A program made the position numbers and the translations under genes. DNA of 64,000 nucleotides, from NCBI RefSeq assembly GCF_014204895.1, contig NZ_JACHMF010000001.1, forward strand, positions 1 to 64,000, in the 5' to 3' direction. The DNA is from Paractinoplanes abujensis (lineage in GTDB: Bacteria > Actinomycetota > Actinomycetes > Mycobacteriales > Micromonosporaceae). Position 1 is the first letter of the stretch. Every line of letters starts with the position of its first letter. The notes under the pieces are model-generated. The model saw only the letters and a list, made by a program, of their open reading frames with translations, was not told the origin of the DNA and did not search any database. This document shows positions 44,610 through 57,447 of this stretch, in pieces.

Positions 44610-44686
<77 letters not shown>

Positions 44687-45038: not shown

Positions 45039-46258
45039 TTAGGGTGAGTCACCGGTGGTAAGCACGACGATGCGCTGTTCAGAGTGGCAACCGGCCGCGA
45101 CGGCCCGCCGCTCCCGTTCGCTGGCTACGTACACCGTGACACTGAGAAGTCGGTGCGCGACGTCGCCAGTGATACGGGAGGCGATAGGGCAAATTACGGC
45201 TACTACGCGGTGGTTGGCGATGACTGAGACACCCATCGCGTACTCGAAGTCGGCGGGGAGATGCCATGGCCGCATGCCCGCCTCGGCGGCCACGCGTTGG
45301 ATCACCAGCGGAGTAAGTCGATCTTGGCGGCTCATCAGGGCGGCGATGCGCTGCGCGTGCCGCTCGGCCTCTTGCGCGCGGCGCCGTTGCGCCACCTGCC
45401 TGGCCTGCTCAAGCGCCGATCGCTCACCGACTACCTCAGCGTCCGTGGCGCGCTGCGCGTCACGGACGGCCTCGGCCCATTGCAAGTAGGCCGGGCTGGT
45501 CCACCACCATCGGGCCGCCGATCCTATTCGAGGGCTTTGCCTGATGGTTGCGCCAGCCGGAAGGCGTACCCAGACAGCCGCCGCCTGGCAGACGAGCCCG
45601 ACGAATGCGTCCAGCCCGAATGTCACGGTCTCCCACCGCTCATGGCCGGGGCACGGCGGCGGGACCAGAAGGTCCAAGTAGCGGGAACACGAACGCGGAT
45701 TACACCGTTCGACCTGCAGCCGCGCCAGCGGTCCATCTACATGGATGCTGGTCTGCTCGACCTTGACCGTAACCGCCGGTGCAGCCGACGTTGTCGGCCG
45801 GTCGAACACCCACACAACTTCCACGCCATCAACGGCGTAGCGTTCCGTTCGTGAAAGCGTGTCATCGTCGTGCTGCTTAGCCAGCTGTGCCTCCCAGGCC
45901 ACCCGCCGTGCGCCGTCAGGTGAGGTCGCCAGCACATCAGCACGCCACCGGCCCTGCGGTCCGGTGGCCTCCAGTGCAGCGGTCCACCCGGCCTGGCGGA
46001 CGGCGGCGGCGATCGCGGACTTCAGCAGCCTGTGATTCGCGGTTTCCCCAGTGAGTGGACAGTCAGGGTGCGCGGCGTCGTGGGCGAAAACCGCAACCCG
46101 AGCTTCGACACCTTGGCATGCATCGACTCGCCGCAAACGTCGCAGCGCAGCGCCACCCGAGGACGTACCCGGTGGATGCTTTCCCATGCCACCCCGACGC
46201 CCAGGTCGGCGTGAGTCGCATCGACGCGGCCGCCCAAACCGCGGGCCACCAAAGGCAT
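45039..46258 (-). pseudogene. CoiA-like competence/nuclease protein gene with a frameshift
   Basis: The N-terminal part (MPLVARGLGGRVDATHADL.., ..RPRVALRCDVCGESMHAKVSKLGLRF) is read in one frame from ATG 46258. The rest (FAHDAAHPDCPLTGETANHRLLKSAI.., ..GRWRADVLATSPDGARRVAWEAQLAKQ.., ..RTERYAVDGVEVVWVFDRP..) continues in another frame to 45039. The switch lies at the 4-T run (46087-46090 on the other strand); one more T would restore a 406-residue CoiA-like protein. The Asp in WRADV, Glu/Gln in WEAQL and the N-terminal Cys/His set are those of the CoiA restriction-like nuclease fold. It is either a recent mutation, a sequencing error or recoding. An intact copy would bind/cut DNA; role in competence is not implied here. 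Confidence 0.75.
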
Positions 46259-46457
46259 GCATCGATAGTGACCTGTGCGACAGGCCATTCGCTATGGCTT
46301 TGCGGAGGGCGTGAGTTCCCGACTGCAAGAACGTCGGCTACTGGCCGCCCACGTCTCTTTGAGCGAAGGCGTGTCGGCGGTCGGCGCTTGCCTGGGACGA
46401 GGCCTTGCCGCGGTACCGGACGGCCGTCGCGTCAGGCCGATAATGGAGTTGGCCAGA

Positions 46458-46538: not shown

Positions 46539-47426
46539 TCAAGTGCGCGGGCGAGGCCTGTTCGATGGTGGCGTCGGCACGGGCCGCCCGCCCGGCCGGG
46601 GCGTTGGGCGGGGCAGCGCCTGGAGGTCGTTGATGGCGGCGACGACGACGTTCCAGGCGATCCGGACGGTGTCGTCCTCGAGCGTGTATTGCTGGGTCCA
46701 TTGCTTCTTTGGGTGGATCAGGTTGCGGTGGTTGCGCAGTACTTTCAGGTAGTCGATGAGGTCTTGGCCGATCCATTTCTGCCGTTCGGCGAGTTTGATC
46801 AATTCTTCGAGGTAGTCGCTGGGCTGCGGTCCGCCGGTGTGCCGGGCGAGAGCGACGTCGTAGAGGACGCCTTCGAGAGTGCTGCCGAGCATGATGACCG
46901 CGGCGAGACAGGCGCCGGACTGCCAGCAGGCGTGAGCTTCTTCCAGCCGGTGGCGCAGCTGCTGGCCGAATCGACGGTCGCTGACAATGGTGGTGAGGTC
47001 GGCAGTGAGCTGGACCGGTGTGCGCATGGCAGCCCGGTTCATCGTCGGGGCCTGGGTGATCAGTTCCGGGCGGCTGCCGGTGTAGATGATCTGGTAACCG
47101 TCGAGGGCGAGCAGCGTGTTCAGTTCCTCAACGACGGCGACGCGGGCGTCGTCGTTGTCGAGGTACTCGCGGGGGTCGGCTAGGCGCAGCAGCAGCCGGC
47201 GCAGGGCGTCGGGTTCATTGCGGCGCTGGCGCAGCAGGTCGGCGACCCAGGCGCGGCGGCCGCCGTCGACCTCGCCAACGCGGCGCCATCCGGCGGCTTC
47301 GAACAGGGTGGTGATCTGCCAGCCGGTGCGGTAGACGGGGCTGTCGTCGCCTCCGCAAATGATCCCGGCGAGCCGGTCGAGGATATTGTCGTCGAGTTTG
47401 ATGGTGACGGTGTCAGCGGTGGTCAC
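46539..47426 (-). CDS. HEPN-type putative abortive-infection protein
   Basis: 295 aa from GTG 47426, which overlaps the stop of the helicase gene (GTGA); AAGGA lies 8 bases upstream. The N-terminal ~110 residues (..NILDRLAGIICGGDDSP.., ..WVADLLRQRRNEPDALRRLLLRLADPREY..) resemble N-terminal domains of Abi/AbiJ-like proteins. The C-terminal half (..GACLAAVIMLGSTLEGVLYDV.., ..YLEELIKLAERQKWIGQDLIDYLKVLRNHRNLIHP) carries the RX4-6H HEPN signature around residues 229-236. HEPN domains are usually metal-independent RNases used as toxins or effectors. Coupling to a helicase-nuclease suggests a two-gene defence unit (inference). Confidence 0.72.
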   Translation of the reverse strand: MTTADTVTIKLDDNILDRLAGIICGGDDSPVYRTGWQITTLFEAAGWRRVGEVDGGRRAWVADLLRQRRNEPDALRRLLLRLADPREYLDNDDARVAVVEELNTLLALDGYQIIYTGSRPELITQAPTMNRAAMRTPVQLTADLTTIVSDRRFGQQLRHRLEEAHACWQSGACLAAVIMLGSTLEGVLYDVALARHTGGPQPSDYLEELIKLAERQKWIGQDLIDYLKVLRNHRNLIHPKKQWTQQYTLEDDTVRIAWNVVVAAINDLQALPRPTPRPGGRPVPTPPSNRPRPRT

Positions 47427-50400
47427 AGCTCAGTTCCTTGATCGTCATCGTCGGCCGGCAGGACGACGGGCTTCCAGGAAGCGTCGCCAGGATCGGCTTC
47501 CGCTGGGGAGTGAGGACGGATGCCGTGTTCGTCGAGGCGCCGCCACAGTGTGGCGAGTTCACGGTCGGGGTCGAACTCGAATTCGCTTTCGCGGATCCGG
47601 ACGACGTTCCAGCCCATGCGGCGCAGTTCCCGGTCACGGCGAGCGTCGGCCGCGGTGTCAGCGGGGGAGGTGTGCCATTGGTGGCCGTCGCATTCGACGG
47701 CGAGGCGGCTGCCGTCACCGACCACGACAAGGTCCAGGAATCGGGTTCCGACGGGGAACTGCGGCACGACAAAGAAGCCTCGTTCGCGGATCTTGCGGAA
47801 GACGCGTTGCTCGAACAGTGACTCGAACGGGTCGGTCGGTTTGGCGTCGCTGACCGCATCCAGGTCGGGGGAACTGCCGTACACCGGTGGGGTTCGGAGC
47901 ATGTAGTCGATCAGTGAGCCTCGTAGATCGCCGGGTTTGAAGGTGCCCGGCGCCACCGAGGTGAACAGCCACATCTGGTCGCGGGCCCGGCTGGCGGCGA
48001 CGTTGCAGAACTGCTTGAACAGGGTGGTGTTGCGGGTGACCCGCGTTTCGGTGCTGACGAGGCTGAGGAACACGACGTCGCGTTCGTCGCCCTGAAAGTT
48101 TGGCGGCGACCCGACCCGGATCTGTCGTTCGACGCGGACCTGCGCGGGTATAGCTTCGTTGATCTCGTGTTCCAAGAGTTTGATCTGTCCGGTGCCCTGC
48201 ATGACGACGATCCCGAAGGTCTTCCCGTCGTAGGCAGGATCGGCCAGGCACTCCAGCAGGTGAGCGACCAGGCGCTTGGCTTCGATCGGGTTGCGGATCG
48301 CGGCGTCGCGCCGTTCGGTGAACCCGTCGGTGACGTGTTCGACCCGCAACGGCTTCAGGGCGCCGGCGCGGCGTTCGCGTAGCGGCACCAGGCCGCTGCT
48401 GCCGGCGCCGTCGTCGTAGAACTGCTGCGACGACCAGTTGATGATCTCCGGTACGCAGCGGAAGTGTTCCCGCAGCCGGACCACGGCGTCTTTGCCGGAG
48501 CGGCTGGTCAGCAGCCCGTACAGGTTGGTTTTGGGGGTGAAGTTGAGCCGGATCTCGGCATCCAGTTGGCTGAGGTATTCGCGCATGCTGTCGAAGATCT
48601 GGTCGAGGCTGCGGCCCATGCGGACGGTGCCGGGTGTGCATTGCTGGTCGTCGCCGACGACGATGACCCGCGGTGCCATCCACAGCAGGAAAAGGTGTTC
48701 CACGCCTACCTGACTGGCTTCGTCGACGATGATGACGTCGAACGCGTCCGGTTGGGCAGCGATGTTGTCCAGCAGGTTCGGCAAGGGAACGACCCATACG
48801 GGCACGGCGCCTTTGGCCTTCTCCATGGCGGCCCTACCGGCTCGCTGGAAGTCGCGGGCCTTGCTGCCTCCGCCAGCGCCGGCGTTGGTGTGGTGTTCGC
48901 GGTAGCTGCGCAGTGCGCGGGCGTGGGTGTCGGTCATCCGGTCCAGGCACGCGTGAAGGGCTTGCGCGCCGGCAAGCTGGGCGGTGACGCGGTCGATGGT
49001 GTCGTCGATCTGGTCGTATTCGGCGACCAGTTGGCGTTCCTGGTCGGTGTTGCGCAGCTCGGTCAGGAACTGGCGGGCTTTCGCCCACGCCCACGCCGCG
49101 GGCAGGTCGGCGAGCAGGTCCGGCCACTGCGGCTCGTGCCAGCTCCGGGCGAGCATGTCAGCCAGGCCGGGATGCCCTGCTCGCAGCACCCCGAACAGGT
49201 TGCGGCAGCGGACAGCGTCCGCCTTCTCGCTGCGAGCGTTTGCGAGGGCGTCCAACCCGTCGCGGTAGGCGTCGACGTTGCGGGCTCCGATCGCCTCCAG
49301 CAGGGCGGTCAGTTCCGGGCAGGCCTCCTCGGCGGTGGCCCACTGCCGGACGCGTGCGTACAGCTCGTTGACCTGGTGCCGGGCCTGGCGCAGGGCGACG
49401 TGGTAGCGGGCCGCAGGCACGGCCCGGATCACCTGCAGCAGGTTGGCCAGCGTCGACAGATCCCATCGCAGCCCGTGCCGAGCGAGCAAGGCGGCGATCG
49501 CCTGCTGGGAGCTACGAACAGCGAGTACGTCCCCGAGGAGTTCGTCTGCGTCGTGCAGTTCCGACAGCCGCCGGGTGAGGGACCCGTTCGGTATCTCGAC
49601 CTGCACGTCAGCCCACTTGCCGACCAGTTGGGCGACGTCCGCCTCGGCCTGCAGATACTCCAGGGCGGTGTCTAGATCGTCGACGGTGGTCGGGACCTGG
49701 CCGTTGACGGTGACCAGATCAAGTAGCGTCTGAGCTCGTTTCTGCGAAGCTGACGGCCACATCTTGCGCAGCTTGCCGCCGCCGTCGAAATAGGCGCGCA
49801 AAGCTGCTCCGTCGGCAAGCAGACCCCGCACCGTGCCGGCGCCGAGCTCGGACAGAGGCCGGCGTAATTCGACTACCGCGCCGACGCCGCGGGCCTGCAA
49901 CGCCTGCTGCAACCGGCCGGCGGTGCCGCGAACCTCGACCAGGTGACCCCACAATCCGGTGTGCCGGCCGGCCAGATGATCCGCAACAGCCGGGCCAAGC
50001 CATCGCCGGTTGCCCGGTGGCTGCGCCTGCTTGTCGAACCGTAGCCGACCCAGAGCGTCGTGAACGGTGCCGGCCAACGCCTCGATTTCGGTCAATGCCT
50101 GCGCGCCGATGCCCGCGAGACGCTGGGTAGCAGGGTCGCTAGCGGTGTCCGCGGTCGCCTGCGCCTGCTGCTCGGCGCGTACGCCCTCCAGCAGCGCGGC
50201 CGGAGACGGCAGTTCCGCCGTGGCCGGGATGCGCTGTTGCAGCCGCTGCCGACGGGCGGAAGTGTCACCGGCCAGCAGCCTCAACAACTCGAGCGCCTCG
50301 GCCGTCGGCAACGGCGGCTCGTCAGGGTCCTCGACGCGTACCGGCGGCATCCACCCGTACCGAGGCCGTCCTTGAGCGATCTGGCGGACCAACTGCCCAG

Positions 50401-51970
50401 GGGAGCCGACATAGAAACTGGTCGAGAAACCCGGCACTAACGGGCCGAAGTCGGTGTACTCCACCTGCCGCAGCGCCTGAATCTGCGAGTTGAGCTCAGC
50501 GCGCCTTCCCCGCAGCGCCAGCCGCTGAGCGGTCAACGCTGTAATTCGCTCCGGCAGCTGGGCGGAACCAGGATCCGAAATCGCCGCCGACAACGCGTCC
50601 AACCCCTGACGCAGCTCAGTCGCGGTGTCCTTGCTGCCACCGGCCAGCAGTACACACAACCGGCGCAGCTCCGGCGGAATCTTCTTCCGCAGCACCTTCA
50701 GCGCCTGATCTTTCTGACTGGTCACCAGCACCCGCTGCCCGCGGGCCATCAGCGCGGACACCAGGTTCGCGATGGTGTGCGTCTTGCCGGTCCCCGGCGG
50801 CCCCTGCACCACCACACCTGTCTCGGTGCGCAGCAGATCCATGACGCGCCGCTGCTCGTCATTGGTCGGCAACGGGAACAGCGGATCATCACCCAGAACG
50901 TCACCGGCGACCGCCCCCTGCCGGTCCAGCCACGCCCGGCGCTGCTCCGGTTCGGTCTCGGTCACCAACTGCGCCAGCGCTACCGGCACGTCGGCGCCGG
51001 GCTGCCGCAACGCGACCGCAATCTTCTTGTACGTCTCGGCGAGCAACGCCCGGCTCCGGGGCCGCACCAGCAGCGCCGGCGACGCCGTGAGCACCGGCCT
51101 GACCGGCAACGGACCGCCCAGCCCCGCCTCCGGGCCGTCGGTGCCCACGACCGTGTCCAGCGTGACACCTAGCCAGCCCGTCAACCGGTCCACCAGCTGC
51201 GCATCAAACACGGCCAAGTCCGGATCAACGACCTGCTCACGCTGGGCGCGTCCTCGATCTGGATAGAAGCCGTCCTGATCACCGAGTACCTGGCGGTCCT
51301 CCAAGCGCCTACGGCCAGACACGACCGCAACAGTGATCTCCGCTGTGGCCCGATTCAGACGCGGCACCACGGTCTCGACGAGCAGATGCCGGCGCAGAGC
51401 GTCACCCTCAGGGCTCTGCCAGCGCAGCAGCCCCGTTCCCAGCACCATCTCGAACTCGTCGTCCTGCTGCTCGAGCAGCTTCGCGGAATGCTCGAGCATC
51501 TCGTACAAACTCCGGTGCTGCTGCGCCAAACGCTGCTGCTGCGCCCACTGCGTCCACGTCGCCAGCCAACGGGCGAACGCGGACGTCACCGTCGGCGGCG
51601 GCTTGGTGCGTTCCCACGACGGAAGGCTCAGCGGCCCAATCTCGGCCAAGCGTGGTGCTGGGCCCTCGTGCGTACGAACTCCTTCGGGCTCAACCCAGTC
51701 GGCCAGGACCGGCGGTGCAGGCGGCTCCGGCGCCAGCTGCCGGGGTTTGACCCGCAGGATCACACCGTCGGCGGCACTGGTCGTCAGCCGAATGCCAGCC
51801 GGCAGCCGGTCCAGCCAGATGATCGGATCCGGAGACTTGGCGCCCCCGGCCAGAATGTCGCGAATCGGATCTCGCTCCGATGCGGCGGTGACGTCGGCAA
51901 GGAACTCCATCAGCGAAGTACTCCTGCGCAACGCCTCTTGGTCTACTCCCACTGCTGCACCCACCTCCAT
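47423..51970 (-). CDS. SF1 (UPF1/COG1112-like) helicase with C-terminal Vsr/DUF559-type nuclease domain
   Basis: About 1515 aa. Walker A GPPGTGKTHTIANLVSAL is near residue 388, and a ~700-residue insertion rich in helices separates it from Walker B VIIVDEASQVGVEHLFL (~1080). The later helicase motifs include VVGDDQQ, ..LREHFRCVPEIINWSSQQFY.., ..GSPPNFQGDERDVVFLSLV.., ..NVAASRARDQMWLF... The C-terminal ~150 residues hold a PD-(D/E)XK-like nuclease with FLDLVVVGDGSRLAVECDGHQWH and ..RDRELRRMGWNVVRIRE. Start uncertain: ATG 51970 has no ribosome site, ATG 51910 has AGGAG ten bases upstream. It probably tracks on foreign nucleic acid and cuts it (inference from such helicase-nuclease proteins in defence islands). 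Confidence 0.82.
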   Translation of the reverse strand: MEVGAAVGVDQEALRRSTSLMEFLADVTAASERDPIRDILAGGAKSPDPIIWLDRLPAGIRLTTSAADGVILRVKPRQLAPEPPAPPVLADWVEPEGVRTHEGPAPRLAEIGPLSLPSWERTKPPPTVTSAFARWLATWTQWAQQQRLAQQHRSLYEMLEHSAKLLEQQDDEFEMVLGTGLLRWQSPEGDALRRHLLVETVVPRLNRATAEITVAVVSGRRRLEDRQVLGDQDGFYPDRGRAQREQVVDPDLAVFDAQLVDRLTGWLGVTLDTVVGTDGPEAGLGGPLPVRPVLTASPALLVRPRSRALLAETYKKIAVALRQPGADVPVALAQLVTETEPEQRRAWLDRQGAVAGDVLGDDPLFPLPTNDEQRRVMDLLRTETGVVVQGPPGTGKTHTIANLVSALMARGQRVLVTSQKDQALKVLRKKIPPELRRLCVLLAGGSKDTATELRQGLDALSAAISDPGSAQLPERITALTAQRLALRGRRAELNSQIQALRQVEYTDFGPLVPGFSTSFYVGSPGQLVRQIAQGRPRYGWMPPVRVEDPDEPPLPTAEALELLRLLAGDTSARRQRLQQRIPATAELPSPAALLEGVRAEQQAQATADTASDPATQRLAGIGAQALTEIEALAGTVHDALGRLRFDKQAQPPGNRRWLGPAVADHLAGRHTGLWGHLVEVRGTAGRLQQALQARGVGAVVELRRPLSELGAGTVRGLLADGAALRAYFDGGGKLRKMWPSASQKRAQTLLDLVTVNGQVPTTVDDLDTALEYLQAEADVAQLVGKWADVQVEIPNGSLTRRLSELHDADELLGDVLAVRSSQQAIAALLARHGLRWDLSTLANLLQVIRAVPAARYHVALRQARHQVNELYARVRQWATAEEACPELTALLEAIGARNVDAYRDGLDALANARSEKADAVRCRNLFGVLRAGHPGLADMLARSWHEPQWPDLLADLPAAWAWAKARQFLTELRNTDQERQLVAEYDQIDDTIDRVTAQLAGAQALHACLDRMTDTHARALRSYREHHTNAGAGGGSKARDFQRAGRAAMEKAKGAVPVWVVPLPNLLDNIAAQPDAFDVIIVDEASQVGVEHLFLLWMAPRVIVVGDDQQCTPGTVRMGRSLDQIFDSMREYLSQLDAEIRLNFTPKTNLYGLLTSRSGKDAVVRLREHFRCVPEIINWSSQQFYDDGAGSSGLVPLRERRAGALKPLRVEHVTDGFTERRDAAIRNPIEAKRLVAHLLECLADPAYDGKTFGIVVMQGTGQIKLLEHEINEAIPAQVRVERQIRVGSPPNFQGDERDVVFLSLVSTETRVTRNTTLFKQFCNVAASRARDQMWLFTSVAPGTFKPGDLRGSLIDYMLRTPPVYGSSPDLDAVSDAKPTDPFESLFEQRVFRKIRERGFFVVPQFPVGTRFLDLVVVGDGSRLAVECDGHQWHTSPADTAADARRDRELRRMGWNVVRIRESEFEFDPDRELATLWRRLDEHGIRPHSPAEADPGDASWKPVVLPADDDDQGTEL

Positions 51971-52399
51971 GTCGTCCGGAAGGCAGCAGACCAGAATGCC
52001 GATCCGCCATGGACAGTTGCAAGAAGTGTTCGCATCATGCGGGATGAGTGAATATTGAGAAGGTCTCATGTCGTCTGGCGATCGGGTGCCGGACCATGGG
52101 ATCAAGCCAGCTGGCGGCACTGACATGGAACGTCAGGACCTTGAAGCGTCACAGCGGGTCGGGCGCCTGGGAATTCGTCGCCGACCTGGCGGCGCTGCAC
52201 ACTGACGCAATGCTGATCAAGCGCGACCAGTGCGGCGGAGCGTTGCCCCTTGATGCCCGTGCCAACCCGACGACTGGCGGGCTCGGCCTACAGACCGTCG
52301 ACGAACGACCGCAAATGCCGACCCCCCCACGAGGGGCAGGACATTCCGGCTGAAGCGCGGTGCAGCGTCATCGGCGGGCGCGAGACCGCAGAGCTGAAG
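51971..52399. other. Gap between helicase gene and integrase relic
   Basis: A 101-codon open frame (52048-52353, +) exists, but its composition and lack of a start signal do not support a gene. The region probably contains the promoter of the helicase-HEPN operon and further decayed island DNA. Confidence 0.4.
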
Positions 52400-55419: not shown

Positions 55420-55533
55420 GGGAGCTCCCGGTATTCGAGGGATGTGGCGTACACAGCAACTCATTGCGGCGACGATATCTATGGAAGCATAATCCGTTAA
55501 TGGAGTCAACAGATACTAGGCGAAGCGGCTGTG

Positions 55534-55539
55534 TACACT
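55534..55539 (+). promoter_or_regulatory. Possible -10 element for a leaderless transcript of the type I operon
   Basis: TACACT ends 7 nt before GTG 55546 and there is no ribosome site before that codon. This fits leaderless initiation at GTG 55546. No convincing -35 box was seen. Confidence 0.4.
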
Positions 55540-55545
55540 AGTGGC

Positions 55546-57447
55546 GTGGAACGACGAGCGAGAGTCACCGCAGCCGACATCGCGCGCTTCGCAGGGGTTG
55601 GCCGAGCGGCGGTCAGCAACTGGCGGAAGCGCTACGAGACCTTTCCGGCACCGGTCGGCGGCACGGTGGCGAGCCCTCAGTTCGACCTCGCGGAGGTCGA
55701 TCGCTGGCTCACCGACAACGGCAAGGCGCTCGCCATCCCGGACGAACACCGGTTCTGGCGCGACATGGTCGAAGCCCAGACGGATCCGGCTGAGGCGATA
55801 GCCCGAGCCGCCGAGCAGCTCAGCGGTACCCGGCCCTTGACCGACGCCTCACTGCGGGCCGAGCTCGATGCGCTGGTCGCCCGGCCGAAAGGAGGAGGGG
55901 CCAGGGAGACGCTGCACCAGTTGTGGGCGCAGTTCGCCGACACACCCGCCCGGCGAGCCGCCAGCACGCCCGACCACCTGGCTGCCCTGATGGTCCGCCT
56001 GGCCGGGATCAGCGCCGGCACCGTGCTCGACCCGGCCTGCGGAAACGGCCAGCTGCTGCGGACGGCGGCCGAGGCCGGGGCGGCCGAGGTCTTCGGCCAG
56101 GACATCGACGAGCCGACCGCACGGCTCGCCGCGGCCTGGCTCGCCGTCGACGAGGTGACCGGCGAAATCAGGATCGGCGACTCCCTACGCGCCGACGCCT
56201 TCCCGGGGCTCGCCGTCGACGCCGTGCTCGGCCACCTGCCGTTCGGCCAGACCAACTGGGGGCAGGAGGACCTCGGCTACGACCTCCGGTGGGAATTCGG
56301 CGTGCCGCCACGCACCGAGCCCGAACTGGCTTGGGTGCAGCATGCGCACGCGCATCTCAAACCGGGCGGTACGGCCGTGCTGCTCATGCCGCCGTCGGCC
56401 GCGGCGCGCCGGGCCGGCCGGCGGATCCGGGCCGAGCTGCTCCGCAAGGGCGCGTTGCGGGCCGTCATCGCCCTTCCTCCGGGCGCCACCACCGCGATCG
56501 CGGGCGCCCTGCACGTATGGATTCTCCAGCGCGCCGCCGGCGCTCCCGCCCCCACAGTGCTGCTCGCCGACGGCCGCGCCCTCGCCACGCCCGACCCGAT
56601 GGACCTGCCCGAGACCTTCGACGGGATCGCGGAAGCGGTGGAGACCTTCCTCGGTGGTGGCGACCTCACGCAGGCAACATTCGCCCACGAGATCCCGGTC
56701 ATCGACCTGCTGGACGCCGAGGTCGACCTCACCCCGGCCCGGCACGCCCCGGCAGGCCTGGAACACGCCCATCTCGTACGGGAACTGGAAGCCAACCAGC
56801 ACCTCCTCAAGGGCCTGGCGCAGGAGCTGGGCCGGCGTGTGCCGGCCGCTTTGAAAGCTACGGAAGAAGACTCGTTCCCACTGCCCACAATCGCCATCGC
56901 CGACCTGGCACGCAGCGGAGCCCTCGAGATCCTCGGCCCCATCCGCGGCGACGACGGCGAACCGGCCGACGCGCGCGTGCTCACCGCGCAAGACGTCACG
57001 GGGCAGAGAAGTGCGCAACGAAGCGACGAACGGCTGAGCCAGCGCATCCCGCTCAAGGCCGGCGACGTCGTCGTCCCGCTGGTGGCTCGCCATCTCGCCA
57101 CTACGGTTGTCGAAGCCGGGGATGCCGAGATCCTGCTCGGCCGCAACCTCTACCTCCTACGCTGCGACCCGCAGGTGCTGGACCCCTGGTTCCTCGCTGC
57201 CCACCTTCGCACCGCCGCGAACGAACGCCAGGCCAGCAGCCTCTCCGGCACCCTGCGCCTCGACATCAGGAAGGCTCAGGTGCCCCGAATCCCGATAGCA
57301 GAGCAGTCCCGCCACGGCGCAGCGTTCGAGCGCCTATACCAGTTGAACCGAATGGCCAGGCAGGTAACGGACCTTTCGGTCGAGATGACTCGGCTGACCG
57401 TCGAAGGTCTGGCGTTTGGCAAGCTGCGTCCCACCGAGAAGAACTGA
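55546..57447 (+). CDS. HTH-N-6 methylase-fold protein with degenerate catalytic motif
   Basis: 633 aa from GTG 55546 (GTG 55531 also in frame). N-terminal MerR/AlpA-like HTH (VTAADIARFAGVGRAAVSNWRKRYETFPAP..). The HsdM-like core has SAM motif I DPACGNGQLLRTA near residue 162, but the catalytic motif IV reads VLGHLPFGQ (~227-235) where active N6-adenine methylases have NPPF. The asparagine is replaced by histidine and one proline by leucine. The C-terminal ~200 residues resemble a target-recognition domain (..ILGPIRGDDGEPADARVLTAQDVTG.., ..LDIRKAQVPRIPIAEQ..). It precedes hsdM by 14 nt. A DNA-binding or specificity accessory rather than an active methylase is likely (inference). Confidence 0.85.
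   Translation: MERRARVTAADIARFAGVGRAAVSNWRKRYETFPAPVGGTVASPQFDLAEVDRWLTDNGKALAIPDEHRFWRDMVEAQTDPAEAIARAAEQLSGTRPLTDASLRAELDALVARPKGGGARETLHQLWAQFADTPARRAASTPDHLAALMVRLAGISAGTVLDPACGNGQLLRTAAEAGAAEVFGQDIDEPTARLAAAWLAVDEVTGEIRIGDSLRADAFPGLAVDAVLGHLPFGQTNWGQEDLGYDLRWEFGVPPRTEPELAWVQHAHAHLKPGGTAVLLMPPSAAARRAGRRIRAELLRKGALRAVIALPPGATTAIAGALHVWILQRAAGAPAPTVLLADGRALATPDPMDLPETFDGIAEAVETFLGGGDLTQATFAHEIPVIDLLDAEVDLTPARHAPAGLEHAHLVRELEANQHLLKGLAQELGRRVPAALKATEEDSFPLPTIAIADLARSGALEILGPIRGDDGEPADARVLTAQDVTGQRSAQRSDERLSQRIPLKAGDVVVPLVARHLATTVVEAGDAEILLGRNLYLLRCDPQVLDPWFLAAHLRTAANERQASSLSGTLRLDIRKAQVPRIPIAEQSRHGAAFERLYQLNRMARQVTDLSVEMTRLTVEGLAFGKLRPTEKN

Follow-up and report, generated by a model that had tools for sequence, protein, structure and literature searches.

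The window, a stretch of 64,000 nucleotides from Paractinoplanes abujensis, harbours a minus-strand gene pair encoding a 1515-residue UPF1/DNA2-like SF1 helicase-nuclease (47423..51970; defined from its ORF, Pfam and VIA) and, downstream, a 295-residue HEPN protein (46539..47426; ORF and homologues). The stop of the former gene and the start of the latter overlap by 4 nt (GTGA, 47423..47426, minus strand), and overlaps of 1 or 4 nt are likewise projected in 15 of 22 paired rows. The helicase frame stays open further 5', to an ATG at 52126, and the database version of the protein is 20 residues shorter. Two copies of the paired form are present in the P. abujensis genome.

All features of the two proteins described here are encoded on the minus strand. 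The N-terminal region of the helicase-nuclease (residues 1-360; 50891..51970) corresponds in alignment to the segment ahead of motif I in UPF1-like helicases, VIA alignments to UPF1, IGHMBP2 and Dna2 starting at model residues 6-15. The Walker A motif GPPGTGKT (residues 390-397; 50780..50803) is invariant in 64 aligned sequences. DSSP analysis of the AlphaFold2 model delineates a large helical insertion of ~613 residues (residues 443-1055; 48806..50644) that separates the Walker A region from motif II. Sequence alignment places the Walker B motif, or motif II, at DEAS (residues 1083-1086; 48713..48724), and the second RecA domain corresponds to AAA_12 (47960..48499; Pfam, 2.8e-15). The C-terminal part is a MTES_1575/Vsr-like PD-(D/E)XK nuclease (47534..47815; Pfam, 1.3e-25, and alignment), which scores 89.7 bits against a Pfam gathering score of 38.2 and has an intact motif made up of E1387, D1413, E1426, D1428, G1429 and H1433. 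A HEPN domain fused inside the helicase was ruled out, as the 1567-aa helicase protein gave no HEPN Pfam match.

The HEPN protein combines a DUF4145-like HEPN domain with an AbiJ-NTD3-like N terminus, both identified through weak matches. Those of the window protein remain below the Pfam thresholds, with E 0.0046 and 17.4 bits for DUF4145 (gathering score 23.1) and E 0.012 and 15.5 bits for AbiJ_NTD3 (cut-off 32.5); at E up to 0.01, DUF4145 is matched by 60 of 79 HEPN relatives (best 2.9e-06) and AbiJ_NTD3 by 3 of the 79 family members. The model of the protein matches solved HEPN domains in VIA, which together with the AlphaFold2 model delimits the domain to residues 143-277 (46596..47000). 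The presumed catalytic RX6H motif, R231-N-H-R-N-L-I-H238 followed by P239 (46710..46736), was located in the alignments, and R231, R234, N235, H238 and P239 are invariant in those of 79 and 24 sequences; the motif is intact in 25 of 25 rows, representing 24 distinct loci. The protein displays the R-X4-6-H signature on a HEPN fold that defines the superfamily, and it is probably an RNA-cutting enzyme. Its N-terminal alpha/beta domain (residues 9-125; 47052..47402), recognized from DSSP of the AlphaFold2 model and the weak AbiJ_NTD3 match, comprises helices 57-67, 72-83 and 92-107 and strands 111-116 and 119-124 in this model, in a region that the fold search barely covered. We propose that it serves as an adaptor or sensor part. 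In PADLOC, the HEPN gene matched nothing below E 0.029. The first-pass annotation had described a helicase-nuclease next to a HEPN protein with an RX6H motif, and the domains and motifs of both proteins are confirmed.

A helicase-nuclease gene lies immediately upstream of a close HEPN relative, on the same strand, at 39 of the 39 distinct places examined, which rules out chance adjacency. The operonic pairing is near-obligate for the HEPN protein, and the two genes of the module proposed from the window alone are conserved together far beyond chance. This count leaves out partial HEPN matches by which no helicase was seen (G172, G248, G373, G432, G456, G494, G587 and G625, including the broken remnants G456 and G587) or none within 1.5 kb (G816), as well as G893, a distant full-length HEPN relative whose gene lies in a type I R-M operon that lacks the helicase of the pair. 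L100 and L104 gave no HEPN match. With few candidates scored per genome, a near-full-length HEPN protein was found in at least 18 of 250 family genomes, and the paired form is patchy.

The helicase is often found without the HEPN protein. We collected 21 helicase loci, all 21 devoid of a HEPN neighbour, from a biased pick chosen as lacking a known one. Several solo loci share one recurring chromosomal place, and these HEPN-less loci argue that the helicase family has another job too. Solo relatives resemble fixed chromosomal genes, with a GC3 of about 0.95, and five of them adjoin an apparent xylulokinase gene. The idea that the solo helicases have a constant partner was rejected, since the downstream genes read vary between loci.

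Two highly divergent helicase backbones share a single HEPN family as partner, and one of them is the Hhe/ProA/PDC-S37 lineage. Pairing occurs on two widely separated branches of the helicase tree, which needs at least 2 changes, compared with a mean of 14.2 after shuffling. This tree omits three rows with broken frames (L005, L089 and L091), the fragment L074 and L096, which duplicates the locus of L003; L092 was retained despite a frame break in its nuclease region and is counted among the eroded rows described below. The partners diverge in parallel. Across 22 pairs, the distances between HEPN proteins correlate with those between their helicases (Mantel r 0.92, p 0.0001; 0.93 in clade A and 0.97 in clade B), as shared descent alone would also yield, and both trees carry long-branch warnings.

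The nuclease motif is intact in the window subclade (5/5 rows), in L084/L085 (2/2) and in clade B (8/8). In one paired subclade (L087, L088, L090 and L092-L095), all seven rows lack the Gly and His residues of the motif and four of them the helix Glu; E1426 is still found in all seven, D1413 in six and D1428 in five, and DNase activity may survive there, judging from the residues retained. The HEPN motif is intact in these seven loci, indicating that the pair is maintained even with an apparently damaged DNase. Solo rows also lose nuclease residues (E1426 in 4/20, H1433 in 5/20), and paired lineages are hence not alone in this decay.

The erosion of nuclease residues, but not of the HEPN motif, in one paired subclade leads us to favour HEPN as the conserved effector. 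The initial proposal was that the helicase senses and cuts foreign nucleic acid and that HEPN acts as the effector or as a fail-safe toxin; its effector part is favoured, and the helicase-cuts/fail-safe view is disfavoured. The pair is likely a two-part anti-virus system, which resembles known ones and has no name of its own. Our main reading, to which we assign a probability of roughly 57%, is that of a two-protein immune module with the helicase as sensor and controller, the HEPN RNase as conserved effector and the DNase as an extra arm; complex formation, silencing, the trigger, the RNA target and phage protection are elements that we infer. The helicase-nuclease would load on invader-made nucleic acid that is single-stranded or structured, and its ATP cycle would do the sensing and switching. 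Coupled translation would yield the HEPN protein, which would attach to the helicase, probably with its N-terminal domain against the helical insertion, and be kept silent there. Once the helicase engages its target or is blocked, HEPN, set free or brought into line as a dimer, would cleave RNA and thereby arrest the cell or the phage. The Vsr-like nuclease might provide a first-line DNA cut, which some lineages may have lost.

It appears unlikely that the helicase-nuclease is instead the main weapon, a methylase-free, ATP-driven restriction enzyme, with HEPN as a fail-safe suicide RNase that acts if DNA cleavage fails. This arrangement recalls the fail-safe HEPN proposed in 2013 for giant HEPN-Vsr fusions (PMC3710099), and it agrees with the intact nuclease motif of the three groups named above and with the partial retention of key acids even in the eroded subclade. 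It is harder to reconcile with the seven paired rows in which an eroded nuclease motif accompanies a retained HEPN motif, and with HEPN hardly ever occurring without the helicase, while the helicase often occurs without HEPN.

The element that carries the pair sits between repeats of the 3' end of a tRNA-Pro (ggg) gene (44610..44686, plus strand; ARAGORN), its inferred attachment site; this 3' end recurs at genome coordinates 69892, 76708 and 79091. It also holds type I R-M genes, EcsC and AIPR and is a defence-rich context. Other pairs adjoin GajA and HEC-01A, or TIGR02678/79/80 genes, and seven of ten neighbour proteins of other pairs, picked by eye, match PADLOC at E<=1e-5, a raw share without a background rate. 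HEPN relatives are also found on 4 Streptomyces plasmid records, and the pair was confirmed on the 2 examined, both linear. Such plasmids, the tRNA-linked element with its repeated att-like copies, the near-obligate pairing and the broken state of the helicase-less remnants G456 and G587, as expected if a lone HEPN protein is harmful, would suit a toxin-antitoxin-like or stress module, in which the helicase keeps a HEPN toxin in check and which is maintained by selection chiefly because it stabilizes mobile elements and not for phage defence. We nevertheless hold this to be quite improbable, as the role of antitoxin would fall to a 1500-residue ATPase bearing a nuclease, to which no antitoxin known to us bears resemblance, and as the element carries defence genes. 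Least probable of all is a UPF1-like quality control function in RNA surveillance or DNA repair, with HEPN trimming RNA and immunity not primary: the resemblance of solo relatives to fixed chromosomal genes suggests that the backbone may be housekeeping, but the paired form is patchy (at least 18/250 family genomes), and in P. abujensis it lies in a defence-rich element and is present in two copies.

If the two-protein immune module is real, it would represent an unnamed actinobacterial immune system missed by current defence-finding models. Its natural variants with a damaged-looking DNase arm, together with the two very different helicases driving one effector family, would allow a direct test of how the helicase switches the RNase on.

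Among library models, the best matches of the window helicase are PDC-S37 and ProA. PDC-S37, a PADLOC candidate whose model gives no curated cut-off, matches partially, in two stretches (168.4 bits; best residues 898-1533). Membership was rejected for ProA (NCBIfam NF058533; 168.2 bits vs an equivalog cut-off of 1500) and for Hhe (NF042953; 103.6 bits vs 2000). Two clade-B relatives score 832-838 bits with ProA and 621-622 with Hhe, and two score 895-905 bits with PDC-S37. Our literature search found no paper on PDC-S37 or ProA. Hhe is said to stand for HEPN-helicase-Vsr endonuclease, a name attributed to Gao in 2020, and unites HEPN, helicase and Vsr nuclease within one polypeptide. It shares an SF1 helicase and a MTES_1575/Vsr-type nuclease with the window helicase; however, Hhe is a single protein of ~1800 residues named for DUF4011, whereas the window HEPN is encoded by a separate 295-aa gene. 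With these partial or far-below-cut-off matches, the PADLOC and NCBIfam searches matched the pair to no named system of the same architecture, in line with the first-pass annotation.

The further suggestion that this exact pairing may be undescribed stands in so far as no curated model is reached; its kind is known from HEPN-SF1-Vsr fusions (PMC3710099) and from cnuHE (PMC11090510). Giant HEPN-transglutaminase-SF1 helicase-Vsr-wHTH proteins (MTES_1575), described in 2013, have the enzymatic set of the window pair, namely HEPN, SF1 helicase and MTES_1575 nuclease (PMC3710099). Their parts are fused, with a HEPN of the SWT1/Abi2 family, whereas the pair consists of two genes, and their transglutaminase and wHTH (DUF3320) parts have no Pfam match in the window protein. 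The fusion of HEPN to an SF1 helicase and a MTES_1575 nuclease argues for contact between such parts. AbiJ and DUF4145 HEPN proteins share the HEPN fold and R-X4-6-H with the window HEPN protein, and some are described in R-M operons (PMC3710099), like the distant relative G893; unlike them, the window HEPN protein is tied to an SF1 helicase-nuclease.

CoCoNuT cnuHE, described in 2024, is an operon whose UPF1-like helicase carries a helical insertion and is followed by a downstream HEPN effector, and the same helicase-HEPN coupling is proposed for it (PMC11090510). As in the window pair, the cnuHE of Type II/III CoCoNuTs has a UPF1-like SF1 helicase, interrupted after Walker A by a large helical insertion, and a downstream HEPN effector gene with an N-terminal domain; that domain is an elongated wHTH in CoCoNuTs, and we liken the window pair to CnuH/CnuE from their published description, which names AMO81399.1 and AVE71179.1. 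Type III-B has a Vsr-like nuclease fused to the helicase, as in the window protein; the pair differs from CoCoNuTs, as they are presented there, in combining a helicase-fused nuclease with a separate HEPN protein. Type II/III loci carry a CnuB/McrB GTPase and CnuC/McrC (PMC11090510), and PF10117 (McrBC) was unmatched in the genome of the window in a weak test that detected 1 of 14 control genomes. We tentatively envisage, as a possible though doubtful scheme, a McrBC-free, stand-alone relative of cnuHE in logic, in which a bacterial UPF1-like RNA/ssDNA surveillance motor would gate a plug-in HEPN RNase. Helicase-nuclease backbones of very different kinds would have acquired this HEPN module on two or more occasions (as would a type I R-M operon in the case of the distant relative), the fused DNase being dispensable with the RNase on board.

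Using the HEPN protein of the window (46539-47426, minus strand) as a query, we searched the whole genomes of 394 members of the class and 250 of the family; with the paralogous HEPN protein, 348 genomes of the order and 67 of the genus were searched. Relatives were additionally sought in genome_contigs and among plasmids. Counting only close, near-full-length HEPN relatives, we collected 39 distinct places: 2 in the P. abujensis genome itself, 4 more from the class, 17 from the family, 12 from the order, 2 from genome_contigs and 2 in plasmid records (the two examined of 4 with HEPN matches). In 39/39 places, a helicase-nuclease gene is found directly upstream of the HEPN gene on the same strand, as it is in the window (47423-51970). 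The co-conservation of the pair expected by the first-pass annotation is thus borne out in other genomes. Reading frames are broken at four of these places (L005, L089, L091 and L092), and the two genes have a projected overlap of 1 or 4 nt in 15 of 22 paired rows. In a rough cross-check restricted to contigs of 6 kb or more, at least 31 of the 68 HEPN proteins listed had a contig of exactly the same length as one of the 120 listed helicases (1447 found).

No helicase was found beside HEPN in the stretches examined of nine further genomes, where the HEPN matches are only partial or weak; in two of these (G456 and G587) they look like decayed copies of the window HEPN family. A distant relative in genome G893 (L143:7774-8640, a 288-residue gene, 27-32% identity over 140-170 residues) sits in an apparent type I restriction operon with hsdM, hsdS, a reverse-transcriptase-like gene and hsdR, as identified from translations, at a locus devoid of a helicase of the window type. 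Pairing is therefore near-obligate within the close HEPN family but not absolute beyond it. Judged by eye, the N terminus of this relative resembles AbiJ-NTD3. In genome G494, a 333-residue protein (L102:5270-6271) matches only the N-terminal part of HEPN (residues 18-137, 33% identity), with no helicase match in the 12 kb of the locus and no NCBIfam match; it is perhaps the same adaptor joined to a different effector.

HEPN is thus nearly always found with the helicase, but the converse does not hold, as the helicase also occurs without HEPN. It was detected in 44 of 121 family genomes (E<=1e-20), and none of 21 solo loci had a HEPN match, a biased pick comprising 20 loci chosen for having no known HEPN neighbour and one further copy from the own genome. 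Five of them (L068, L069, L072, L074 and L075) adjoin an apparent xylulokinase gene, a recurring place, and the nuclease motif of L068, L069 and L072 lacks E and G; these solo helicases may form a housekeeping branch.

A tree of 42 helicases splits the 22 paired ones between two branches. Clade A, to which the window protein belongs, has 14 rows of about 1500 residues and sits within a set of solo helicases; clade B has 8 rows of 1277-1373 residues. The paired/solo label needs at least two changes on this tree, compared with a mean of 14.2 for shuffled labels, none of 500 shuffles being as low. The scores of two scanned clade B members (PDC-S37, 895-905 bits; ProA, 832-838; Hhe, 621-622) and their DUF4011 domain place this clade, by sequence, in the Hhe/ProA/PDC-S37 lineage. 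The HEPN partners of the two clades split cleanly, and HEPN and helicase distances correlate (r 0.92, n=22 pairs). Because both trees carry long-branch warnings, they do not choose between two captures and one old pairing. It is clear that a single HEPN family works with two very dissimilar helicases.

In the simplest account, the helicase would sense or process invading nucleic acid and gate the HEPN RNase; the docking and gating of HEPN, its target and any protection are all inferred. All 25 rows examined (24 distinct loci) carry the HEPN motif R-x-[HYF]-R-N-x-x-H-P. No residue of the nuclease motif is missing from the window subclade (5/5 rows), L084/L085 (2/2) or clade B (8/8). The motif is partly eroded in one paired subclade (L087, L088, L090 and L092-L095), where 7/7 rows lack G and H following ECD and 4/7 lack the helix E. 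This subclade includes the second, diverged pair of P. abujensis (L095, C1:1956741-1962021), whose nuclease motif is eroded in part (VECETPD) and whose HEPN motif is intact. The retention of the HEPN motif in all rows while the nuclease erodes suggests that HEPN is the component that cannot be lost. This reading is limited, since solo helicases also lose nuclease residues (E1426 absent in 4/20 rows, H1433 in 5/20), and erosion is no proof of lost activity. Moreover, the eroded subclade keeps E1426 in 7/7 rows, D1413 in 6/7 and D1428 in 5/7. These retained acids, together with the broken state of HEPN remnants without a helicase, slightly shift weight from a sensor helicase with a HEPN effector to a toxin-antitoxin-like module, which we nevertheless regard as improbable.

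ARAGORN predicts a tRNA-Pro gene at 44610-44686, 1.9 kb from the pair. Its 3' part (43-46 bases) is repeated in direct orientation at genome positions 69892-69916, 76708-76732 and 79091-79115, the second copy with one mismatch; none of these repeats is a tRNA gene according to ARAGORN. They point to a putative tandem of two or three elements integrated at tRNA-Pro, in which no integrase was identified. The first, of about 25 kb, would comprise a CoiA-like nuclease gene immediately downstream of the HEPN gene (45039-46328), the pair, EcsC, an N6 methylase, type I R-M genes (HsdM and HsdS assigned from reading translations), a kinase and, just beyond the window, an AIPR protein (genome 65664-67820, L117:5664-7820; match 4.5e-34). 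The second harbours a Prim-Pol/DUF3631 gene. Elsewhere, the L088 pair adjoins GajA and HEC-01A, and a pair on a Streptomyces plasmid adjoins TIGR02678/02679/02680 genes. The type I methylase model PDLC03037 matched at 55531-57447 of the window and near two clade B pairs (L079:11392-12999 and L083:476-2578). Among ten neighbour proteins of other pairs chosen by eye, PADLOC matched seven and not the other three.

Against PADLOC and NCBIfam, the window pair scored above cut-off for none of the named systems. As for the proposal that the exact pairing may be undescribed, no description of the two-gene pair was found in the openly accessible papers searched; this kind of system is, however, already known. 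The model of a helicase gating HEPN draws on an arrangement in which the gene of a HEPN effector follows that of a UPF1-like helicase carrying a helical insertion behind Walker A; the authors suggested that the N-terminal wHTH of the effector contacts the insertion (PMC11090510). Fusions of HEPN, SF1 helicase and MTES_1575 nuclease are known, and suicidal RNase action upon failed DNA cleavage was proposed for them (PMC3710099). HEPN parts are viewed as last-resort effectors in BREX-related systems (PMC12839542), and HEPN catalytic residues are reported to be required for defence by DS-11, which has no helicase (PMC13092281).
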